Positions 27,284 through 58,920 of a stretch of DNA of 64,000 bases are shown piece by piece (within the stretch, counting starts at the first letter, position 1; every line of letters starts with the position of its first letter). The notes beneath the pieces are model-generated. The model had not been told where the DNA came from, did not search any database, and was given only the letters and a program-made list of their open reading frames with translations. The stretch is from Chloroflexota bacterium (lineage in GTDB: Bacteria > Chloroflexota > Chloroflexia > Chloroflexales > Roseiflexaceae), in assembly GCA_013388755.1 (NCBI GenBank), contig JACAEQ010000027.1, positions 1 to 64,000 of the forward strand, in the 5' to 3' direction. The position numbers were made by a program, and so were the translations under genes.

Positions 27284-27426
27284 AATGTGAGTCAGGCCCG
27301 TGCGTCTCGGAAGCTATGTTCCACAACACATCGCGTAGTACCCCTACCAGTCCGCACACAACCATCTCCAGTCCAAAATGAATTATACTGAGGCTCGCGC
27401 CAGCGTTGTTCGTATGGGGAGCCTGC

Positions 27427-28728
27427 TTGAACGCGTATTGCCCATCCTGCGGCGCGCCGGTGATGCCACGGTCGCGCTTTTGCCCATCCTGTGGCCGCCC
27501 GTTGCCCGACCCGCCGCCGCTCCCGCCGCCGTCGCCGCCGCGCGGGAACGGCGATCCGCCGGTCGAGGGGGTGCTGCCGAGTGGTAAGCGCCTGCGCGTC
27601 AGTGGCGATAGCCTCGATCTGCGCGAGTTGATAAACGTGGTAGAATCGGGCGTGCGCTGGTGGCAGCGCAGCCTCAGCAGTGGCGATGCGGTGACGCGCC
27701 AGCAGGCGGCGACCGCGATTGATGAGCTGTCGCAGATTCTGCGTAGCCTGTCGCAACAGCTGGCTCAGGGGCGCGAGACCATCCGCATCACGAAACGCCT
27801 GCCGGCGTTGCGCCATTTCGACCTGCCCTGCCCGCTGTGCGGCGGCGGCAATCGCGCCGGCGCGCGTTTCTGCCAGCGTTGCGGTGCGCTGCTGGCGGCA
27901 GCGCCACGTTATGGAGCCGAACAGGTGCAGTCACGCGCTTTGCGCTTCACGGTCGCAGCTCGCACCGATACTGGCCGGGTGCGCAAAAATAACCAGGACG
28001 CGGTGTATACCGGGGAGATCGATCTCCCTGGTGGCCGGCGCGCGCTCCTGTGCCTGGTCGCCGATGGGATGGGTGGTGCGGCTGCGGGTGAGTACGCCAG
28101 CCGCCTGGCGACCGAGGTCAGCCGTGCACACCTCGAGCGCGAGTCGGCTGACCATCCGCCGCCGACCGATGAAGCATGGCAGGCGCTGCTGCGCGAGGCG
28201 GCGCGCGCCGCCAATCGCCGGGTCTATGATGACTCGCGCGCCGATACATCGCGGCGCGGCATGGGAACAACGCTGACGATTGCGCTGATCGCCGGCGATC
28301 GGTTGCATATCGCGTCGGTGGGCGACTCGCGCGCTTACCTGTTGAACAATGGCGGCGTCACGGCTGATGGCGCGCCCGCCGCCCAGTTGACGTCCGACCA
28401 TAGCCTGGTGGCACGCCTGGTGGATATCGGCCAGTTGACGCCGGAACAGGCGCGCGTGCACCCGCAGCGCAATATTCTGTATCGCTCGATCGGCACCGAT
28501 CCGTCGGTGGATGTTGATACACGCTCGGAACAACTCGAGCCGGGAGATGTCATCTTGCTCTGCTCCGATGGCCTGGTCAACCATGTCGGCGACGACGAGC
28601 TGATGCAGATAGCCCTCGGCGAGGCGAGCCTCGATCGGGCGGCTGCACGCCTGGTAAGCCTGGCCAATGAGCGCGGCGGGCGCGACAATATCAGTGTGGT
28701 GATTGTGCGTATCGAACATGCGCTATAG
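27427..28728 (+). CDS. PP2C-type protein phosphatase with two zinc ribbons
   Basis: 433-residue predicted cytoplasmic Ser/Thr phosphatase. A zinc ribbon (C5, C8, C19, C22) is followed by a proline-rich linker, a helical segment, a second ribbon (C135, C138, C149, C152) and a PP2C domain at about 174-430. PP2C metal-binding motifs are visible: TGRVRKNNQDAV, LVADGMGGAAAGEYAS, GDSRAYLLNNG, LLCSDGLVNHV and RDNISVVIVRI. TTG 27427 is chosen because GGGGAG lies five bases upstream and ribbon proteins start this way; the frame also allows TTG 27406. It opens a five-gene + strand island with a kinase, a VWA and an FHA protein and should reverse phosphorylation by the kinase at 30689. Confidence 0.87.
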   Translation: MNAYCPSCGAPVMPRSRFCPSCGRPLPDPPPLPPPSPPRGNGDPPVEGVLPSGKRLRVSGDSLDLRELINVVESGVRWWQRSLSSGDAVTRQQAATAIDELSQILRSLSQQLAQGRETIRITKRLPALRHFDLPCPLCGGGNRAGARFCQRCGALLAAAPRYGAEQVQSRALRFTVAARTDTGRVRKNNQDAVYTGEIDLPGGRRALLCLVADGMGGAAAGEYASRLATEVSRAHLERESADHPPPTDEAWQALLREAARAANRRVYDDSRADTSRRGMGTTLTIALIAGDRLHIASVGDSRAYLLNNGGVTADGAPAAQLTSDHSLVARLVDIGQLTPEQARVHPQRNILYRSIGTDPSVDVDTRSEQLEPGDVILLCSDGLVNHVGDDELMQIALGEASLDRAAARLVSLANERGGRDNISVVIVRIEHAL

Positions 28729-28838
28729 TTCTGCTGTTGCCGTTGCACCTGCGGGGAGGTCCGGAGGGCGCCGCCCCTCCAGCATTCCCTGTTTGCCCGT
28801 TGTGCGGATCGTTGCGAACGTGGAGTGGTAACCTGGCC

Positions 28839-30638
28839 ATGCCTGTCTGTCAGTCGTGTGGCGCGGTGAACCGTGAGGGAGCCCGCTACTGCCTGCAATG
28901 TGCAACGCCGCTTTCGCCTGGCCGATCGCCGGCGGATGATCGTGCATGGCTGGCGGCGCGATTGCTCGCCGACCCGCCCGAACCGCCGCCAGACTCACCG
29001 GTGTCGCCAGACGCACATACCCCACCGCAGGGAATGATGGCTGCGACACTGCCGCCCGACGCGCCTCCGCCGCGTCCAGACGAGGAGCCCGCTATGGATT
29101 CCCCGCCCGCCGAACCTGGCGCAACTGAGCTGTTTGCCGGCCGCTATGAGTTGAGCGCCGCGTCCGCCGAAACGGTCGAGGTGATCGATCGCCAGCCGTG
29201 GCGCCGCTGCTGGTCGTGTGATACGACGCTGAATGAATCGGGTGAACTCTACTGTACCCAGTGCGGCGCGGCACTCGATGGTCGCCGCTATCGCGGTCGC
29301 CTTGCCGCTGGCCCGCCAGCGGGCCTGGCGCTGGTGCCGGCGGTAACCGACCCGGCCGCGCTGGCCATCCTGCCGCCGATCTGGGACCAGGTGGCCGATG
29401 GCGAGCGTACGCTGACGCTGACCCCTGCGAGCCAGCGTGCGCCGCTGTCCCTTCCGCTGGGTGAACTCGAGGCGCTCTTCGTCGGGCGTGCCCTGGCGCG
29501 CCTGCTGGATACGCTGCACGCCGCCGGCTTTGCTCTGGGTGCGGTCGAACCGGATAATCTCGATCTGACCCCGGCGCACGCGGTACGCCTGCGCGATGTG
29601 CCCGGTCTGTGCCGCGCTGAGGGGGAGGCTGCTGCCGACCTGCAGCACCTGGCGACATTGCTCGAAGCATTGACCGAAACGCCGCGTACTACCCGGCGTC
29701 TCGATGAAGAGGATGTGACGCTGGTCGAGGCGCCGACGCTTGCCGACCTGCTGCGCGAGGTGCGCACCGGGCGCATCACGGATGCGGCGGTTCTCGCACA
29801 GCGACTCGACAGGCTGATTGCCGATCGCACCGAGCCGGCGCAACTCTGGGTGCACTTCGGCGCCGCCACCGACCCCGGCATGGTGCGTGACCTGAACGAG
29901 GATAGCCTGCTGGCGTTCGATCTGCGCATGGTGCGGCGCGATACCCCGCGCGCCTGGAGCCTCTTCATCGTCGCCGACGGGATGGGTGGCCATAGCGCCG
30001 GCGAAGTCGCCTCCGACCTGGCGCTGCGCGGTGCATTTGAGGTTGTCCAGAGTGCCTACCTGGCGCCGACGATTGATGCCGACGCGCGTGATGATGAGGA
30101 GCAGTTGCGCGCGATTGTGCGGCGCGCGGTGCAGCAGGCCAATGAGTATGTGGTGCGCGAGGCGCGCAGTCACGGCAACGATATGGGAACAACCATGACG
30201 CTGGCGCTGGTTGCCGGTGATCGCGCGATTGTCGGTAATGTCGGCGATAGCCGCACCTACCTGCTGCGTGATGGCAAACTGCGCCGCGTCAGCCGCGATC
30301 ATTCGCTCGTGCAACGCCTCGTCGATCTTGGCCAGATCAGCGCCGATGATGTCTATACCCATCCGCAGCGCAATGCCGTCCTGCGTTCGCTGGGCGACAA
30401 ACTCGATGTGGATATTGACGTGTTTGGCGAGCGGTTGCGCCCCGGCGATGCCCTGCTGTTGATGAGCGATGGGTTGTGGGAAATGGTGCGCGATGGGCGG
30501 ATGGAAGAAATCATCGCGGCGCACCCGGATCCGCAGGCGGCCTGCGCGGCGCTGATTGCGGCGGCGAATGCCGCCGGCGGCGACGACAATATCACCGTCA
30601 TCCTGGCAAAATTCGCCACATACGGAGGGCAGTCGTGA
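28839..30638 (+). CDS. Zinc-ribbon pseudokinase fused to a PP2C phosphatase
   Basis: 599 residues. Order: zinc ribbon (CQSC...CLQC, residues 4-22), acidic/proline-rich linker, then a kinase-like region at about 101-325, then a PP2C domain at about 335-598. The kinase-like region begins LFAGRYELSAAS. A second zinc ribbon (CWSC...CTQC, about 124-142) interrupts its N-lobe. Later LLDTLHAAGFALGAVEPDNL stands where active kinases have LH..HRDLKPxN, and LRDVPGL stands where DFG would be, so it should be catalytically dead. The PP2C part has LNEDSLLAF, IVADGMGGHSAGEVAS, GDSRTYLLRDG and MSDGLWEMV and looks active. ATG 28839 was chosen; the frame is open to 28737. Confidence 0.8.
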   Translation: MPVCQSCGAVNREGARYCLQCATPLSPGRSPADDRAWLAARLLADPPEPPPDSPVSPDAHTPPQGMMAATLPPDAPPPRPDEEPAMDSPPAEPGATELFAGRYELSAASAETVEVIDRQPWRRCWSCDTTLNESGELYCTQCGAALDGRRYRGRLAAGPPAGLALVPAVTDPAALAILPPIWDQVADGERTLTLTPASQRAPLSLPLGELEALFVGRALARLLDTLHAAGFALGAVEPDNLDLTPAHAVRLRDVPGLCRAEGEAAADLQHLATLLEALTETPRTTRRLDEEDVTLVEAPTLADLLREVRTGRITDAAVLAQRLDRLIADRTEPAQLWVHFGAATDPGMVRDLNEDSLLAFDLRMVRRDTPRAWSLFIVADGMGGHSAGEVASDLALRGAFEVVQSAYLAPTIDADARDDEEQLRAIVRRAVQQANEYVVREARSHGNDMGTTMTLALVAGDRAIVGNVGDSRTYLLRDGKLRRVSRDHSLVQRLVDLGQISADDVYTHPQRNAVLRSLGDKLDVDIDVFGERLRPGDALLLMSDGLWEMVRDGRMEEIIAAHPDPQAACAALIAAANAAGGDDNITVILAKFATYGGQS

Positions 30639-30688
30639 GTTCATGGGCCGTGTCTTTGCCGCTGCGCCAGTCTACTGGAGCCTGAACG

Positions 30689-32035
30689 ATGCGCTGCCCG
30701 ACCTGTAACACGCTCAATCCGGCAGGGGCGCCGTTCTGTGCCGAATGTGGCACGCGCCTGGTAACATCCCCTGGCCCGCCGTCCGTGCCACCGACCGGCG
30801 CGCTGCCGCAGCAGATGGTGCTCCAGGGGCGCTATGTCATCGAACAGAAACTTGGCCAGGGCGGTATGGGCGCCGTCTATCGCGCGCGCGACCTGCGCCT
30901 CAGCACGGTGACCTGGGCCATCAAGGAGATGAGCCAGTCGCAGATTACCGGCCCGCTCGAATTGCAGCAGGCGCGCGTGGCCTTCCAGCAGGAAGCCGAG
31001 TTGCTCGCCGGATTGTCGCATCCTGGCCTGCCGCGTGTCGTTGATCATTTTGAGCAGGATGGTAAGGCCTACCTGGTGATGGAATTTGTGCCCGGTGGGT
31101 CGTTGCTGGCCATTGCACAGCGCGAAGGGTTGCCGCTGCCGTTGCCGCGCGTGCTCGACTGGGCGCGCCAGATCTGTGATGTCCTCGAATACCTGCATAG
31201 CCGCCCGTCGCCGATCATCTTTCGCGACTTGAAACCGGCCAATGTGATGCTGACCCCTGAAGGGCAGGTCAAGTTGATCGATTTCGGGATCGCGCGCCTG
31301 TTCAAGCCCGGCAAAGAGCGCGACACGCAGGCGTTCGGTACCATGGGGTACAGCGCGCCCGAGCAGTATGGTCGCGGCCAGACCGATGCGCGTTCGGACG
31401 TCTATTCGCTGGGTGTGCTGCTGCACCAGTTACTGACCGGTTATGATCCGACGTCAACACCCTTCCGCCTGCCGCCCGCACGGCAAGTCAACACGTCGTT
31501 GCCGGCGCACGTCTCCGACGCAATCGCGCGCGCGGTCGATCCCAATCCCGAGGCGCGGTTTCCCGGCGTCGCCGCCTTTCGCGACGCGCTCATGGCTGGC
31601 GAGCAGGTCATGCTGCGCCCGGTAAGCCGGCCGATCGAGACCGATCGCGCATATGACGCTGCGAGCCAGCAGGTCTCGGCGCAGAACGTGCAGCCGGCGC
31701 CGATCGGCGGTGACTCGACGCTTATCGCCAATGCCGGGCGCTGGGTCGGGATCGGTAGCGTGGCGTTGATGGCCCTGGCGGCGTTGATCGTCGGCATCGA
31801 GGCGGCGCGTGGCGATTCGGGCAGCGCGCTGGCGGGATTCGCCTACATTGTCGCGTTCATTCCATTACTTGCCGGCCCGGTGGCTTTTGTGCTCGGCATG
31901 ATCGCGCTGGTCTCACCGGTCACGGCGCAGACGGTACATGGCCGGCGCCACGCAACAATTGCCGTCGTGACCGGCGTGGCAACGCTCCTGCTCTGCTGCG
32001 GGATCTTCGGCCTGGCCGGCACGACGAATGGATGA
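30689..32035 (+). CDS. Membrane-anchored Ser/Thr protein kinase with N-terminal zinc ribbon
   Basis: 448 residues. A zinc ribbon (C3, C6, C17, C20) is followed by a Hanks-type kinase domain at about 47-310: glycine loop LGQGGMGAVY, ATP lysine K79 in WAIKEM, catalytic loop IIFRDLKPANVML (D180, with Phe replacing the usual His), DFG at 198-200 and YSAPEQYG. Three hydrophobic segments follow at about 351-370, 382-408 and 422-444, with no extracellular sensor such as PASTA. The kinase is therefore cytoplasmic and tethered by its C-terminus. Sitting between two PP2C genes and VWA/FHA genes, it is the likely writer of the island, with FHA at 33371 as reader. Confidence 0.9.
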   Translation: MRCPTCNTLNPAGAPFCAECGTRLVTSPGPPSVPPTGALPQQMVLQGRYVIEQKLGQGGMGAVYRARDLRLSTVTWAIKEMSQSQITGPLELQQARVAFQQEAELLAGLSHPGLPRVVDHFEQDGKAYLVMEFVPGGSLLAIAQREGLPLPLPRVLDWARQICDVLEYLHSRPSPIIFRDLKPANVMLTPEGQVKLIDFGIARLFKPGKERDTQAFGTMGYSAPEQYGRGQTDARSDVYSLGVLLHQLLTGYDPTSTPFRLPPARQVNTSLPAHVSDAIARAVDPNPEARFPGVAAFRDALMAGEQVMLRPVSRPIETDRAYDAASQQVSAQNVQPAPIGGDSTLIANAGRWVGIGSVALMALAALIVGIEAARGDSGSALAGFAYIVAFIPLLAGPVAFVLGMIALVSPVTAQTVHGRRHATIAVVTGVATLLLCCGIFGLAGTTNG

Positions 32036-32103
32036 TCGACAGCGCAACGTTTCCGCCCTGCAAGGCGTATAACAGGTAAGGATACGCCAGAGAGGAGAGA
32101 GCC

Positions 32104-33351
32104 ATGTCCGGTGCCATCTCGCTCAGTTGCACCTGGGGACGCGCGCCGATGGTCGCCAGCCAGAACCCGCAGGTTGCCTACCTGCTGGTCGAAGCGCAGG
32201 CGGCGACGGTTGCCGAGCCTGTGCCACTGAATTTCAGCCTGGTGCTCGACCGCTCAGGCTCGATGCAGGGCGCCAAACTGGCAGCGTTGAAGGACGCGAC
32301 CAGGCGCGTGATCGAGACGCTGACACCACACGATATTGTTTCGATCGTGCTGTTCGACGATACGGTGCAGACGTTGACGCCTGCGACGCCGGCAACTGAC
32401 AAAGCCGCGCTTATCGCCCAGATTGACGCAATCGAAGAGGCCGGTGGCACTGCAATGTCGGGTGGCCTGGCGGCCGGCGTGGTCGAACTGCGCAAGCACG
32501 CCGATCCCGGGCGCGTCGGCGCAATGTTGCTGTTGACCGACGGCCAGACATGGGGCGACGAGGATCGTTGCCGTGCCCTGGCCCAGGAGCTTGCCCGCGA
32601 TGGCGTGCGCGTCACGGCGCTCGGCCTGGGCGCTGAATGGAACGAGCAACTGCTCGACGATATCGCCGAAGTGACCGGTGGTACGTCGGATTATATTGCT
32701 GACCCGGCCCAGATTACGACGTTCTTTCAACACGCCGTGCGTACGGCGCAGGGTACGGTTGCGCAGGATGCGCGCCTGCTGCTGCGCCTGGTACGCGATG
32801 TCGCGCCGCGCGCCGTTCACCGCGCCACGCCGGTCATTGCCAACCTGGGCTACCAGCCGATTGGCGAGAGTGAGGTTGCGGTGCGCCTGGGCGCCATTGA
32901 CGTTGGCGCGCCGGCCAGCGTGGTGATTGATATGATGGTGCCGGCGCGCGGGCCCGGTAGCTTCCGCGTGGCCCAGGCCGAGTTGCACTACACGCCGGTT
33001 GGCGGTACGGAACAGGTGATCAAACAGGACATCCTGCTTGAGTTCGTCGCCGACCCGGCTGCGGCGGCGTATGACCCGCGCGTGATGAACCTGGTCGAGA
33101 AGGTGACGGCGTTCAAGTTGCAGACCCGTGCCCTCTCCGAGGCGGAGGCCGGCAACCTCGCTGGCGCGACCCAGAAGTTGCGCGCCGCCGCCACCCGTCT
33201 GCTCGATCTTGGCGAACTGGACCTGGCACAGAAGGCAACCGAGCAGGCGGATCAACTCGAGCAGGGCAAGGCGCTCAGCGCCGAAGGCCAGAAGGAGTTG
33301 CGTTATGCAACGCGCCGCCTGACGCAGAAACTGGAGGAAGAGCCTTCATGA
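32104..33351 (+). CDS. VWA (von Willebrand factor A) domain protein, TerY/YfbK-like context
   Basis: 415 residues. The VWA domain (about 42-215) has an intact metal-ion-dependent adhesion site: LVLDRSGSM (D49, S51, S53), GGTAMSGGL and LLLTDGQTWGDE. A beta-rich domain follows (215-330), then a helical C-terminus rich in Ala, Glu and Gln. No signal peptide or membrane helix, so it acts inside the cell. GAGGAGAGA precedes ATG 32104. VWA proteins paired with PP2C and kinase genes are known as TerY-P triads. A role as a metal-dependent adaptor for a phosphorylated partner is an inference from that context. Confidence 0.85.
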   Translation: MSGAISLSCTWGRAPMVASQNPQVAYLLVEAQAATVAEPVPLNFSLVLDRSGSMQGAKLAALKDATRRVIETLTPHDIVSIVLFDDTVQTLTPATPATDKAALIAQIDAIEEAGGTAMSGGLAAGVVELRKHADPGRVGAMLLLTDGQTWGDEDRCRALAQELARDGVRVTALGLGAEWNEQLLDDIAEVTGGTSDYIADPAQITTFFQHAVRTAQGTVAQDARLLLRLVRDVAPRAVHRATPVIANLGYQPIGESEVAVRLGAIDVGAPASVVIDMMVPARGPGSFRVAQAELHYTPVGGTEQVIKQDILLEFVADPAAAAYDPRVMNLVEKVTAFKLQTRALSEAEAGNLAGATQKLRAAATRLLDLGELDLAQKATEQADQLEQGKALSAEGQKELRYATRRLTQKLEEEPS

Positions 33352-33370
33352 GCATTCCGGAGGATTGGCG

Positions 33371-34876
33371 ATGATAACATGTTCGACCTGTGGCGCCCTG
33401 AATGACCCGGTCAATCGTTTCTGCGACCAGTGCGGTTCGCGGCTCGAGCCAGGCGGTGTCGCGCCACAGGCCCCGCCGCCCGCATTGAATGCGCAGCCCA
33501 CCGCTGCCGCGCCCGTCTGCCCGAGCTGTGGGGCCATGGTGCTTCCTGGCCAGGCGTTCTGCGAGGAGTGCGGCACCGCGCTGGCGGTCGCCGTCCAGCC
33601 TGCCAGCGGTGATGTGCCGACGATGTTTGCGGCGGCACCCGACATCGCCGCGGTAGGCCCGGTCTGTCCCGCATGCGGCCACCAGAACCTGCCTGGCGAC
33701 CGCTTCTGTGATAGCTGCGGCGCATCGCTTGCTGCCGCTGCTATGCCCGCGCCGCCCATTTCCGATGTGCCGACGGCTGCTGCGCCCGGTGAGCCGGCGA
33801 TGCCCCCGCCGGAGCCGTTTGCCGCGCCGCCCGGCGAACCGGCGATGCCGCCGCCTGCCTTCGAGCAACCACTGCCCACCATGATCGAAGCCGTTGCGCC
33901 GGTGATCGAGCCGCCGGTTGCGCCGCCACCGGTGGTTGAGCCACCTGTCGCGCCGGTGGCGGCGCCGCCTGCCGTTGACGCGCAGGCGGAGTATGAGGCC
34001 AGGCGCCAGACGCTGACCGGCGAGATTGCGCGCCAGCAGCAGATCATCGCGCAGTTCGAGCAGATGCAGGCGATGTTCGGCGCCGCGACGCCGCACGCGG
34101 TGGCGCAGGGTCTGGCCGAAGCGCGTGATGCGCTGGCAAAGGCCGAGGCCGAACTGGCCGCCCTCCAGCCACCACCGCCCCCGGTGGACCCGGCAGTCGT
34201 TGCCAGGCTCAATGACGAGATTGCGCGCCAGCAGCAGATCATCGCGCAATTCGAGCAGATGCAGGCGATGTTCGGCGCCGCGACGCCGCACGCGGTGGCG
34301 CAGGGTCTGGCCGAAGCGCGTGATGCGCTGGCAAAGGCCGAGGCCGAACTGGCCGCCCTGGGCGTGGCCGCCGCGCCGGTCGCGCCGCCGGTGGCGCCAG
34401 CCCCCGCAGCACCGGTGGTCGCTCCACCCGTTGCGCCTCCCGTCCCGCCGGCATCTGTCGAGCCGGACGATACTGCTGCAACGGTAACCTCGCCGCCGCC
34501 GGATCTTCTGGCAGCCTCGGCGCCAACGATCCTGGCGCCGCCCGTCGCGCCGACCGGGCCACGCCTGGTGTTTGATGACGGCAAGCACGAGATCGTATTG
34601 CCGATGGATAAAACTGAAATTACGGTCGGGCGCGAGGATCCAATCAGCGGCATCCATCCCGAGATTGACCTGACCCCCTTCGGTGGCGAAAGCGGCGGCG
34701 TCAGCCGGCAGCACGCACGCCTCATCCAGAGTGGCGGTCACTGGGCGGTGGTTGATCTGGGTAGCACCAACTATACCCGCGTTGACGGCGTACGGGTCGA
34801 ACCGGGCGCGCCGCAGCCGCTGAAAGATGGCGCGCGGGTGCAGTTCGGCCGCCTGGCGGTGACGTTCAAGCTGTAA
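33371..34876 (+). CDS. FHA-domain protein with three zinc ribbons and a duplicated coiled coil
   Basis: 501 residues. Three zinc ribbons (C4-C21, C50-C67, C99-C116) lead into a Pro/Ala-rich linker. Two almost identical 48-residue helical repeats follow (from EIARQQQIIAQFEQMQ, residues about 218-265 and 283-330), then another Pro/Val linker and a C-terminal FHA domain at about 398-501. The FHA phosphothreonine-binding residues are visible: ITVGRED, GVSRQHARLI and DLGSTNYTRVDG. GGAGG at 33357-33361 supports ATG 33371. As the last gene of the island it is the obvious phospho-reader. The ribbons shared with the kinase and phosphatases suggest a common docking partner. The 3' end overlaps the convergent tetR-like gene by 11 bases. 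Confidence 0.88.
   Translation: MITCSTCGALNDPVNRFCDQCGSRLEPGGVAPQAPPPALNAQPTAAAPVCPSCGAMVLPGQAFCEECGTALAVAVQPASGDVPTMFAAAPDIAAVGPVCPACGHQNLPGDRFCDSCGASLAAAAMPAPPISDVPTAAAPGEPAMPPPEPFAAPPGEPAMPPPAFEQPLPTMIEAVAPVIEPPVAPPPVVEPPVAPVAAPPAVDAQAEYEARRQTLTGEIARQQQIIAQFEQMQAMFGAATPHAVAQGLAEARDALAKAEAELAALQPPPPPVDPAVVARLNDEIARQQQIIAQFEQMQAMFGAATPHAVAQGLAEARDALAKAEAELAALGVAAAPVAPPVAPAPAAPVVAPPVAPPVPPASVEPDDTAATVTSPPPDLLAASAPTILAPPVAPTGPRLVFDDGKHEIVLPMDKTEITVGREDPISGIHPEIDLTPFGGESGGVSRQHARLIQSGGHWAVVDLGSTNYTRVDGVRVEPGAPQPLKDGARVQFGRLAVTFKL
34022..34359 (+). repeat. Near-perfect 143-bp direct repeat within the FHA gene
   Basis: Bases 34022-34164 and 34217-34359 are nearly identical (one difference noticed, cagttc versus caattc), offset 195 bases, with a short Pro-rich spacer. 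Identity at synonymous sites implies a recent in-frame tandem duplication of the coiled-coil module. Confidence 0.9.
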
Positions 34877-45224: not shown

Positions 45225-47003
45225 ATGCCTGACAATATTCTCGTTTCCGTGGCCTGGCCCTATGCCAACGGCCCGTTTCATGTCGGCCATGTTGCCGGCG
45301 CGTACCTGCCGGCGGATATTTTCGCCCGGTACCAGCGCCTGCGCGGCAACCGGGTGCTGATGGTTTCAGGCTCCGATTGCCACGGCACGCCGATCACCCT
45401 CGCGGCTGAAAAAGAGGGCATTTCGCCGCAGGAGGTGATCCAGCGCTACCATCCATCATTTCTCAAGACGTTCCAGACCCTCGGTATTACCTTCGACCTG
45501 TTTACGCAGACGTATACCGCGAATCACTATCGCGTGACGACCGACATGTTCCTGCGGTTGCTCGAGCATGGGTATCTCATCAGGCAGACCATGGTCGGGT
45601 CGTACTCAGAGTCGCTCGGGCGCTTTCTGCCGGATCGCTTCGTCGAGGGAACATGCCCGAATTGCGGCTTCCCGCGCGCCCGCGGCGATCAATGCGACAA
45701 CTGTGGCCAGTTGCGCGACCCGCAAGATCTGATTGCGCCGCGATCGACACTCGATGGCGCGCCGGTCACGTTCCATGACACCGAGCATTATTTCATTGAC
45801 CTGGCGAAACTTGAGCCGGCGTTACGTGCCTGGCTCGATGGGGTCGATCGCGGCTACTGGCGCGCCAATACGCTGCTCTTCACGCGGAACTGGCTGCGCG
45901 AAGGGTTACGCGCGCGGGCAATCACGCGCGACCTGGAATGGGGCGTGCCGGTGCCGGTGGATGATCCGGCGTTCAAGGATAAACGGATCTATGTCTGGTT
46001 CGATGCTGTGATCGGGTACTTTTCGGCTTCGATCGAGTGGGCCGAGCGCTCTGGCGCACCGGATGCCTGGAAGGAGTGGTGGGTGTGCCGCCCGGACGGC
46101 TCGGCGCCGGCGCGTTCGTACTATTTCATCGGCAAGGATAACATCCCATTTCATACCATCATCTGGCCGGCGATCCTGCTCGGCTACGGCGACCTGGCGT
46201 TGCCGTACGATGTCCCCGCCAACGAGTTCCTCAACCTGGAGGGAGATAAAATGAGCACCAGCCGGAACTGGGCGCTCTGGGCGCCTGAGATTGAGGATCG
46301 CTACCAGCCTGACGCCCTCCGTTATTACCTGGCGGCCAATGCCCCCGAAACCCGCGACAGCAACTGGAGCTGGGCCGATTTTGTGCAGCGGGTCAACAGC
46401 GAACTGGTTGCGACGTGGGGCAACCTGGCCAATCGTGTGCTGAGCATCACGCATCGCAATTATGGCGTTGTGCCGCAACCCGGCGATCTGGCCGATGCTG
46501 ACCGCCAGTTGCTCGCCGCGACCGGCCAGACGTTTCAAGCCGTCACCGAGTTGCTGGATGGGGTGAAACTGAAGGCGGCATTGACCGAGACACTGGCCCT
46601 GGCACAGGCGGCAAACCAGTATCTCAGTGAGCAGGAACCGTGGAAAATGGTGAAAACGGATCGTGCGCGCGCGGCCACGGTGCTGTTCGTTGCCTTGCGC
46701 GTGGTGGATACGCTGAAGACGCTGTTTTCGCCCTTCCTGCCTTTCAGCAGCCAGCGCCTCCATGAATTGCTTGGCTACCAGGGGATTCTGGCGCCGCAAC
46801 CACGGATTGAGGATGCCATCGCGTTTGATGGCACGCCACGCACGGTGTTGACCGGCGATTATCCGGTCGATACAGGCGCCTGGGCGGTAAGTGACCTCCC
46901 TCCCGGCCAGGCCCTCCAGTCGCCTGCGCCGCTGTTCCAGAAACTGGACGAGGCGCTGGTTGCAGAAGAGCTTGAACGATTACGCGCGAAGGTGCGCGCA
47001 TAA
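45225..47003 (+). CDS. metG: Methionyl-tRNA synthetase
   Basis: 592-residue class I aminoacyl-tRNA synthetase charging initiator and elongator tRNA-Met. The HIGH-type motif is PYANGPFHVGHVAGAYLPAD, the connective-peptide zinc site is CPNC...CDNC (PNCGFPRARGDQCDNCGQ), and the KMSKS loop is GDKMSTSRNWALW. WFDAVIGYFSASIEW is another family segment. There is no C-terminal EMAP/tRNA-binding domain, as in the shorter MetG forms. ATG 45225 is the first Met before the catalytic fold. It probably has its own promoter in the preceding non-coding region and is followed 21 bases later by a small membrane-protein gene. Confidence 0.96.
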   Translation: MPDNILVSVAWPYANGPFHVGHVAGAYLPADIFARYQRLRGNRVLMVSGSDCHGTPITLAAEKEGISPQEVIQRYHPSFLKTFQTLGITFDLFTQTYTANHYRVTTDMFLRLLEHGYLIRQTMVGSYSESLGRFLPDRFVEGTCPNCGFPRARGDQCDNCGQLRDPQDLIAPRSTLDGAPVTFHDTEHYFIDLAKLEPALRAWLDGVDRGYWRANTLLFTRNWLREGLRARAITRDLEWGVPVPVDDPAFKDKRIYVWFDAVIGYFSASIEWAERSGAPDAWKEWWVCRPDGSAPARSYYFIGKDNIPFHTIIWPAILLGYGDLALPYDVPANEFLNLEGDKMSTSRNWALWAPEIEDRYQPDALRYYLAANAPETRDSNWSWADFVQRVNSELVATWGNLANRVLSITHRNYGVVPQPGDLADADRQLLAATGQTFQAVTELLDGVKLKAALTETLALAQAANQYLSEQEPWKMVKTDRARAATVLFVALRVVDTLKTLFSPFLPFSSQRLHELLGYQGILAPQPRIEDAIAFDGTPRTVLTGDYPVDTGAWAVSDLPPGQALQSPAPLFQKLDEALVAEELERLRAKVRA

Positions 47004-58509: not shown

Positions 58510-58920
58510 TCATGGGTCGGCCACCGGCATGGCGCTCACTGTGGAGAATGTTCCCGGAGCATAGTAGGTGACGGTATATGGGCCGATCACACAGAAGGCG
58601 CCGTCCGTCAACAGCCGCGGCGCATACGGCGCCAGCCGATCGCCACCGACATATGTGCCGTTCGCGCTACCCAGATCGGTGACCGTCACGCCCCCGGGCG
58701 CGGGATGGATCTCGGCATGGCGCCGCGAGACCCCCTCATGGCTCAGCACCAGGTCGTTGCTCAACGCACGCCCGACGGTGATCGCCACCTGGCCCAGTAC
58801 CAGTCGGCGCTCAATCACGCCGTCGCGGCGTACGACGAGACGGGCTGCCGCAGCAACGCGCGGCGTGAAGGCATCGCCGCTGGCGGCAGGTGGAGGTTGC
58901 TGGCTCGAACTACCGTTCAT
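58510..58920 (-). CDS. Small FHA-domain protein
   Basis: 136 residues, almost all one FHA domain after a short disordered N-terminus (SSSQQPPPAAS). Phosphopeptide-binding residues are visible: AITVGRALSNDLVLSHEGVS, RRHAEIHPAPGG and TDLGSANGTYVGGDRL. It would bind a phosphothreonine partner, possibly a substrate of the kinase at 30689 (an inference; no link in sequence). Minus-strand AAGG lies ten bases before ATG 58920. It converges on der, 42 bases apart. The 132 bases up to the next minus-strand gene end hold nothing recognisable. Confidence 0.85.
   Translation of the reverse strand: MNGSSSQQPPPAASGDAFTPRVAAAARLVVRRDGVIERRLVLGQVAITVGRALSNDLVLSHEGVSRRHAEIHPAPGGVTVTDLGSANGTYVGGDRLAPYAPRLLTDGAFCVIGPYTVTYYAPGTFSTVSAMPVADP

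Follow-up and report, generated by a model that had tools for sequence, protein, structure and literature searches.

The 64,000-nucleotide stretch analysed here (the window), from a Chloroflexota bacterium of the family Roseiflexaceae, contains an operon of five adjacent plus-strand genes (27427-34876), which probably works like the phosphorylation switch controlling swimming in Sulfolobus. The genes encode, in order, a zinc-ribbon PP2C phosphatase, a zinc-ribbon pseudokinase-PP2C protein, a zinc-ribbon Ser/Thr kinase, a von Willebrand factor A (VWA) protein, and a zinc-ribbon coiled-coil protein with a forkhead-associated (FHA) domain (genes 1-5 below). As this set includes a three-domain VWA protein resembling archaeal ArnB, it is probably an ArnAB-like phosphorylation switch, and we are inclined, with some caution, to regard the operon as a complete system of the ArnA-ArnB type. 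Its novel aspect would be that it represents a bacterial variant of the archaeal switch between zinc-ribbon-FHA and VWA proteins, one that relies on PP2C and includes a pseudokinase. Directly observed were the genes present, their domain architecture, the conservation of catalytic residues and of gene order, and the fold match of the VWA protein. Each gene has a Pfam domain scoring well above the curated cut-off: genes 1 and 2 a PP2C domain, gene 3 a protein kinase domain, gene 4 a VWA domain, and gene 5 an FHA domain. Together with the gene map, these domains bear out the initial annotation, made from the sequence alone, of a kinase, two PP2Cs, an FHA protein, and a VWA protein encoded by five consecutive plus-strand genes. 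The intergenic gaps are 8, 50, 68, and 13 bp.

In Sulfolobus, ArnA is a ribbon-FHA protein with an N-terminal zinc ribbon formed by C21, C24, C35, and C38 (PMC12852372, PMC6509490, PMC7472852). As long as ArnB, which has no ribbon, is unphosphorylated, this ribbon docks on its beta-sandwich and helical domain (PMC12852372). Once the kinase ArnC has phosphorylated threonines of the ArnB helical bundle, these are bound by the ArnA FHA domain, and PP2A reverses the reaction (PMC12852372, PMC6509490, PMC7472852). The operon shares with this system a zinc-ribbon-FHA protein and a three-domain VWA protein with an intact metal ion-dependent adhesion site (MIDAS), as well as Hanks-type kinases (ArnC and ArnD in the archaeon) and a Ser/Thr phosphatase. 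Gene 5 has the architecture of ArnA, an N-terminal four-Cys ribbon and a C-terminal FHA domain, and lies 13 bp from the VWA gene. Moreover, VWA paralogs are adjacent in both systems: Saci_1209 and ArnB flank ArnA, and VWA genes stand in tandem in Herpetosiphon. Unlike the archaeal system, the Chloroflexota operon itself encodes the kinase and the phosphatases; the latter are PP2C rather than PP2A, and one of them carries a pseudokinase with an internal ribbon. Several operon proteins have ribbons, and gene 5 has three of them plus a coiled-coil repeat. The host is bacterial, and no role in archaellum function is implied.

Fold and conservation of the VWA protein

Gene 4 (32104..33351, plus strand) encodes an ArnB-type VWA protein of 415 amino acids. 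In its AlphaFold model, with a predicted local distance difference test score (pLDDT) of 90.6, two strands (residues 5-33) are followed by the VWA domain (about 32227-32733), further strands (218-315), and four helices within residues 325-407. The predicted fold is thus tripartite, the VWA domain being inserted into a split beta-sandwich that precedes a helical bundle. The top Foldseek match was 4fx5, an actinobacterial VWA protein from Catenulispora (template modelling score, TM, 0.75), followed by both ArnB chains of the ArnAB complex 8s05 (TM 0.64-0.69, approximately 424 columns) and by the ArnB paralog vWA2 (5a8j, TM 0.56-0.63); inter-alpha-inhibitor and Sec23/24 ranked below these. When the family profile of gene 4 was compared with the whole PDB, ArnB was the best sequence match (E-value 7e-26), mostly over the VWA domain, and a weak collinear second match to ArnB ran across the beta-sandwich and the helical bundle. 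By predicted fold and domain order, gene 4 is of the ArnB type, outside the sequence family of ArnB itself.

None of the MIDAS residues (D49-x-S51-x-S53, T116, and D146) varies among 39 relatives, and the site is intact, as had been stated in the initial annotation. The candidate phosphoacceptor region is the helical bundle (about 33076..33324, plus strand), which has five nearly invariant threonines: T341, T356, T364, T403, and T407 are Thr in 95-100% of the same 39 relatives. Two of the bundle helices have mean information of 3.38-3.40 bits, compared to 2.85 bits for the whole VWA domain, and are the best conserved among the segments compared, the MIDAS strand excepted. The motif T403-R404-x-x-T407 was considered as a free phosphopeptide tail; this interpretation is weakened by the AlphaFold model, which places the motif in a bundle helix.

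Conservation of the operon across Chloroflexota

Searches with the operon proteins as queries revealed that Roseiflexus, Kouleothrix, Oscillochloris, and Chloroflexus have the full five-gene set with its order unchanged. The gene order is thus clearly conserved outside the source genome, contrary to the refuting outcome named in the initial annotation, and the kinase, phosphatases, and phosphopeptide reader constitute a conserved module. In Chloroploca and several other Chloroflexales the kinase gene is absent from the locus. In Herpetosiphon, one locus contains VWA, pseudokinase-PP2C, VWA, and VWA genes, and another contains PP2C, kinase, and zinc-ribbon-FHA genes. Roseiflexaceae with small genomes have kept only two of the operon genes, for pseudokinase-PP2C and zinc-ribbon-FHA, which adjoin each other. 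The core of PP2C, VWA, and zinc-ribbon-FHA genes, mostly together with the kinase gene, recurs in Ktedonobacteria and other Chloroflexota.

So that loci were not selected by their phosphatase, we anchored a survey of 151 Chloroflexota genomes on the VWA profile alone, and inspected 18 full-length matches outside the source genome. An FHA gene was found within 1.2 kb downstream in 16 of the 18 loci, a PP2C gene within 2 kb upstream in 14, and a kinase gene within 6 kb in 13; all three neighbors were present together in 12 loci. VWA-FHA is thus the tightest gene pair across the phylum at these loci.

The source genome itself encodes a second module on contig 132 (L062:6801-11629), with a kinase bearing a PQQ-type propeller, a PP2C, an ArnB-type VWA protein, and a short zinc-ribbon-FHA protein. 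On contig 36 (L163:6974-9872), a gene for an ArnB-type VWA protein is divergent from one encoding a fusion of Ser/Thr kinase, ribbon, and FHA (494 amino acids), approximately 145 bp apart. Kinase-FHA fusions (L163 and L149, one of them with a ribbon) and a ribbon-kinase-VWA fusion (L121), seen also among relatives, provide a further link among the operon parts. Elsewhere in the phylum, the VWA protein belonging to the module has an N-terminal DnaJ domain, confirmed by Pfam in one case (L155:6731-8263) and read from the sequence in the other (L158:6599-8236). A relative of the pseudokinase-PP2C protein adjoins the ribbon-kinase-VWA fusion on a contig labelled Poribacteria (L121:419-4672). Typical Chloroflexales operon genes were also found on contigs labelled Gracilibacteria and Cyanobacteria (L101 and L108), which look like misassigned bins.

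Enzymes, FHA reader and zinc ribbons

Gene 1 (27427..28728, plus strand) encodes a double zinc-ribbon PP2C phosphatase of 433 amino acids (Pfam PP2C and PP2C_2) belonging to the Stp1 family (NCBIfam Stp1_PP2C, 248 bits, cut-off 230). Its start codon is TTG, with an alternative TTG start at 27406. Gene 2 (28737..30638, plus strand) encodes a protein of 633 amino acids with a zinc ribbon, a pseudokinase, and a PP2C domain (29844..30620), in which the metal ligands D414, D578, and D617 are conserved according to the alignment of relatives; the metal-ligand aspartates are retained in the PP2C domains of both genes.

The pseudokinase region of gene 2 (29130..29831) was delimited using the AlphaFold model (pLDDT 84.7) and hhalign. 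As the 60 listed matches of the gene 2 profile to PDB sequences comprised only PP2C and no kinase, the region was tested by hhalign and against a viral fold library. Hhalign aligned the part preceding the PP2C domain with the kinase of the same operon (probability 98.4%, E-value about 1e-14) over the N-lobe and most of the C-lobe, and Foldseek with the gene 2 model matched PP2Cs and then protein kinases in the viral library. Nothing corresponds to the catalytic Asp (in F178-R-D180 of the kinase) or to the DLKPAN Lys, only EPDN remaining, and the DFG motif reads DVP. This region is hence a pseudokinase, homologous to kinases but with the catalytic residues lost, as had been proposed. It has its own ribbon (29208-29264, plus strand), located in the model between the predicted N-lobe strands beta2 (residues 146-151) and beta3 (184-191); the cysteines of this ribbon do not vary among 22 relatives, and hardly do so in a larger set of 47.

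The Ser/Thr kinase encoded by gene 3 (30689..32035, plus strand; Pfam, orthologs) has its kinase domain at about 30812-31606. The FRDLKPAN, DFG, and APE motifs are conserved among 11 orthologs, all 11 of which also have the three C-terminal hydrophobic segments (about 31733-32026), and the C-terminus is predicted to be anchored in the membrane.

Gene 5 (33365..34876, plus strand) encodes a protein of 503 amino acids with three zinc ribbons, a coiled-coil repeat, and a C-terminal FHA domain (34562..34873) identified by Pfam. The phosphothreonine-holding residues of the latter are conserved: G422-R423, S447-x2-H450, and N469. The coiled-coil region (34022..34360) consists of two tandem repeats of 144 bp each (34022-34165 and 34217-34360), identical at 142 of the 144 bases. 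Relatives of gene 5 also have two units, and the near-identity suggests recent homogenisation. FraH, a zinc-ribbon-FHA protein of Anabaena, may be a relative and is taken as a lead. Another FHA domain is encoded in the window on the minus strand (58597-58782), in an open frame of 140 amino acids distant from the operon.

A pattern search (C-x2-C-x(9-13)-C-x2-C) yielded two, two, one, zero, and three ribbons in genes 1 to 5, respectively, confirming the total of eight ribbons on four of the five proteins; the VWA protein is the sole member having none. Only two further matches were found in six frames of the whole window. The spacing is C-x2-C-x10-C-x2-C in seven of the eight ribbons, as in ArnA, and x11 in the remaining one. 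With the Pfam ribbon model, 7 of the 24 ribbons in the 5.08 Mb genome fall within the 7.45 kb operon stretch, where about 0.04 would be expected under an even spread. In gene 1 the ribbons are at 27439..27492 (C-x2-C-x10-C-x2-C, also matched by Zn_Ribbon_1) and at 27829..27882, directly N-terminal to the PP2C domain; the N-terminal ribbon of gene 2 is at 28848..28901, that of gene 3 (residues 3-20) at 30695-30748, and the three N-terminal ribbons of gene 5 span 33380..33718 (33380-33433, 33518-33571, and 33665-33718), all on the plus strand. The N-terminal ribbon of gene 2 is absent from the relatives in Herpetosiphon and the small Roseiflexaceae. A correlation between the loss of ribbons and the loss of the VWA protein was considered and found inconsistent: Herpetosiphon retains VWA proteins, yet has lost this ribbon, and the FHA protein of the small Roseiflexaceae keeps two ribbons although no full-length ArnB-type VWA is recognisable there. 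Outside the operon, a ribbon-like CPNC...CDNC motif was found at window position 45654 (plus strand) in an open frame of 607 codons.

The proposed switch and alternative explanations

By analogy with ArnAB, we infer the phosphorylation sites, ribbon docking, direction of signalling, and FHA binding of the operon proteins as follows. The hub and substrate would be gene 4, in the role of ArnB, and the reader gene 5, in that of ArnA; gene 3 would act as membrane-anchored writer, with genes 1 and 2 as erasers. In the resting state, the gene 5 ribbons, and perhaps also those of the kinase and the PP2Cs, would dock on the ribbon-less VWA protein independently of phosphorylation. The active kinase would phosphorylate threonines of the C-terminal helical bundle, and the FHA domain could then bind the phosphothreonine, so that the complex tightens or oligomerises, until it loosens again when PP2C strips the phosphates. 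In gene 2, the pseudokinase, which has a ribbon in its N-lobe, may position or regulate the attached phosphatase.

The initial annotation had proposed docking through shared ribbons. ArnA provides a precedent for ribbon docking; its ribbon, however, binds ribbon-less ArnB and not other ribbons (PMC12852372). The lack of a ribbon in the VWA protein alone would be expected if this protein were the docking surface. The VWA protein had also been considered as the effector itself; given that the ArnA ribbon docks on ribbon-less ArnB, it is more plausibly a hub and a substrate of the kinase than an effector in its own right. A broader and clearly more tentative possibility is that the VWA protein serves as a common hub, to which the kinase, both PP2Cs, and the FHA reader are all recruited via ArnA-like ribbons, in an ancient Chloroflexota complex with a core resembling the Sec23/24 fold.

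Several observations weigh against the ArnAB-like switch. The ArnB fold is widespread and mostly not tied to phospho-switching, according to a 2026 structure paper, and occurs also in proteins not known as phospho-switches (PMC12852372). In contrast to ArnB, gene 4 does not match Pfam ArnB_C (PF18677), for which the whole genome gave no match even at E ≤ 1, the Sulfolobus control being positive; homology of the helical bundle to that of ArnB consequently rests on fold and order. Enrichment of Thr among the conserved bundle positions is marginal (P 0.058), and we take it as a lead, not as proof; given this value and their location in predicted helices, the conserved threonines may be structural. 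The profile of gene 5 matches ArnA weakly (5a8i/8s05_C, E-value 0.02), and other FHA proteins score better. Finally, the Herpetosiphon genes are divided between two loci, and the small Roseiflexaceae lack an ArnB-type VWA recognised by the full-length profile; there, the ribbons or the FHA domain of the remaining pair must have other partners.

An alternative that we hold to be quite improbable is that the FHA protein and the kinase mainly serve other targets (a metabolic enzyme, as GarA and OdhI do, or a cell-envelope protein), while the VWA protein is a never-phosphorylated, metal-dependent scaffold. GarA and OdhI are indeed among the PDB FHA proteins that match gene 5 better than ArnA, and some relatives keep genes 2 and 5 with no neighboring VWA gene. 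However, VWA-FHA is the tightest pair at the VWA-anchored loci, and the helical bundle, which bears the phosphosites in ArnB, is conserved as well as any part outside the MIDAS. Another explanation, unlikely in our view, is that the ribbons are thiol/redox or metal sensors gating each enzyme separately, and not docking devices. In the cyanobacterial kinase SpkB of Synechocystis, oxidation of the N-terminal Cys motif inactivates the kinase (reviewed in PMC12189002, PMC10651672); gene 1 matches the NCBIfam 4-Cys-prefix kinase domain model (29.4 bits, cut-off 24), and N-terminal ribbons occur on four operon enzymes or readers. Against such gating, the operon ribbons have the full four-Cys spacing of zinc sites and match structural zinc-ribbon models, ArnA exemplifies docking by the ribbon of an FHA protein, and the only protein devoid of ribbons is the would-be docking surface.

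The systems named in the initial annotation fit the operon poorly. TerY-P triads, which sit with Ter or restriction genes, also combine VWA, PP2C, and a ribbon-bearing kinase (PMC11090510), so that the operon might be such a triad, or a type VI regulator of the PpkA/PppA/Fha kind, minus its effector; we consider this very improbable. The ribbon (or OB fold) of TerY-P kinases is C-terminal (PMC11090510), whereas here the ribbon is N-terminal and the C-terminus bears the predicted membrane anchor. The three-domain ArnB-type VWA protein has no match to Ter-family Pfam models, and the FHA and pseudokinase-PP2C proteins are additional. TerY-P is thus not the right parent, since both the VWA type and the position of the kinase ribbon differ. 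The earlier statement that no Ter or secretion genes lie nearby can be extended to the whole source genome, in which neither TerD nor the type VI marker VipA/TssB was found (control searches were positive in Bacillus subtilis and Escherichia coli, respectively); the missing VipA excludes a link to type VI secretion.

Other systems are similar in part. An archaeal operon encodes a calcineurin-like phosphatase beside a zinc-ribbon-FHA protein and a vWA protein with a beta-barrel domain (Front Genet 2020, PMC7016017); this phosphatase belongs to an unrelated family, and the passage of that paper concerning the operon describes it without a kinase or pseudokinase. In a theme associated with GAP1-N2 GTPases, a kinase, often with a zinc ribbon or transmembrane helices, an active PP2C, and a standalone vWA are encoded adjacently (PMC7159879). 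The GTPase system to which this theme belongs is described as confined to actinobacteria, and the theme as described has no FHA (PMC7159879), and the operon in the window has no neighboring GTPase. The model of a cyanobacterial-type zinc-ribbon phosphatase, PRK14559 (NF011149), combines a ribbon segment near the start, matched by gene 5, with a C-terminal PP2C; genes 1 and 2, however, score 116 and 97 bits with a cut-off of 374, and match over the PP2C part only. With regard to phage defence, matches to the PADLOC candidates PDC-M21C, PD-T4-6, and MAD6 were limited to generic PP2C and kinase domains, and no PADLOC defence model matched the VWA or FHA protein.

The ArnAB switch has been studied biochemically, yet treated as an archaeal peculiarity; no link of the ArnA/ArnB pair to Chloroflexota was found in the open-access papers listed on the pair, which is not a proof of novelty. 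The phylum-wide occurrence of bacterial ArnB-type VWA proteins beside zinc-ribbon-FHA proteins, kinases, and PP2Cs speaks for an older and more widespread switch. The five proteins form a self-contained set and have relatives in bacteria that are in culture, so that hub, writer, eraser, and reader could be tested together. Moreover, the operon offers a concrete job for the N-terminal zinc ribbons that numerous bacterial kinases, phosphatases, and FHA proteins carry. Terminator-like sites are not more common than in shuffled sequence, and the operon is flanked by genes on the opposite strand, encoding a ROK-family protein upstream and a TetR regulator downstream.

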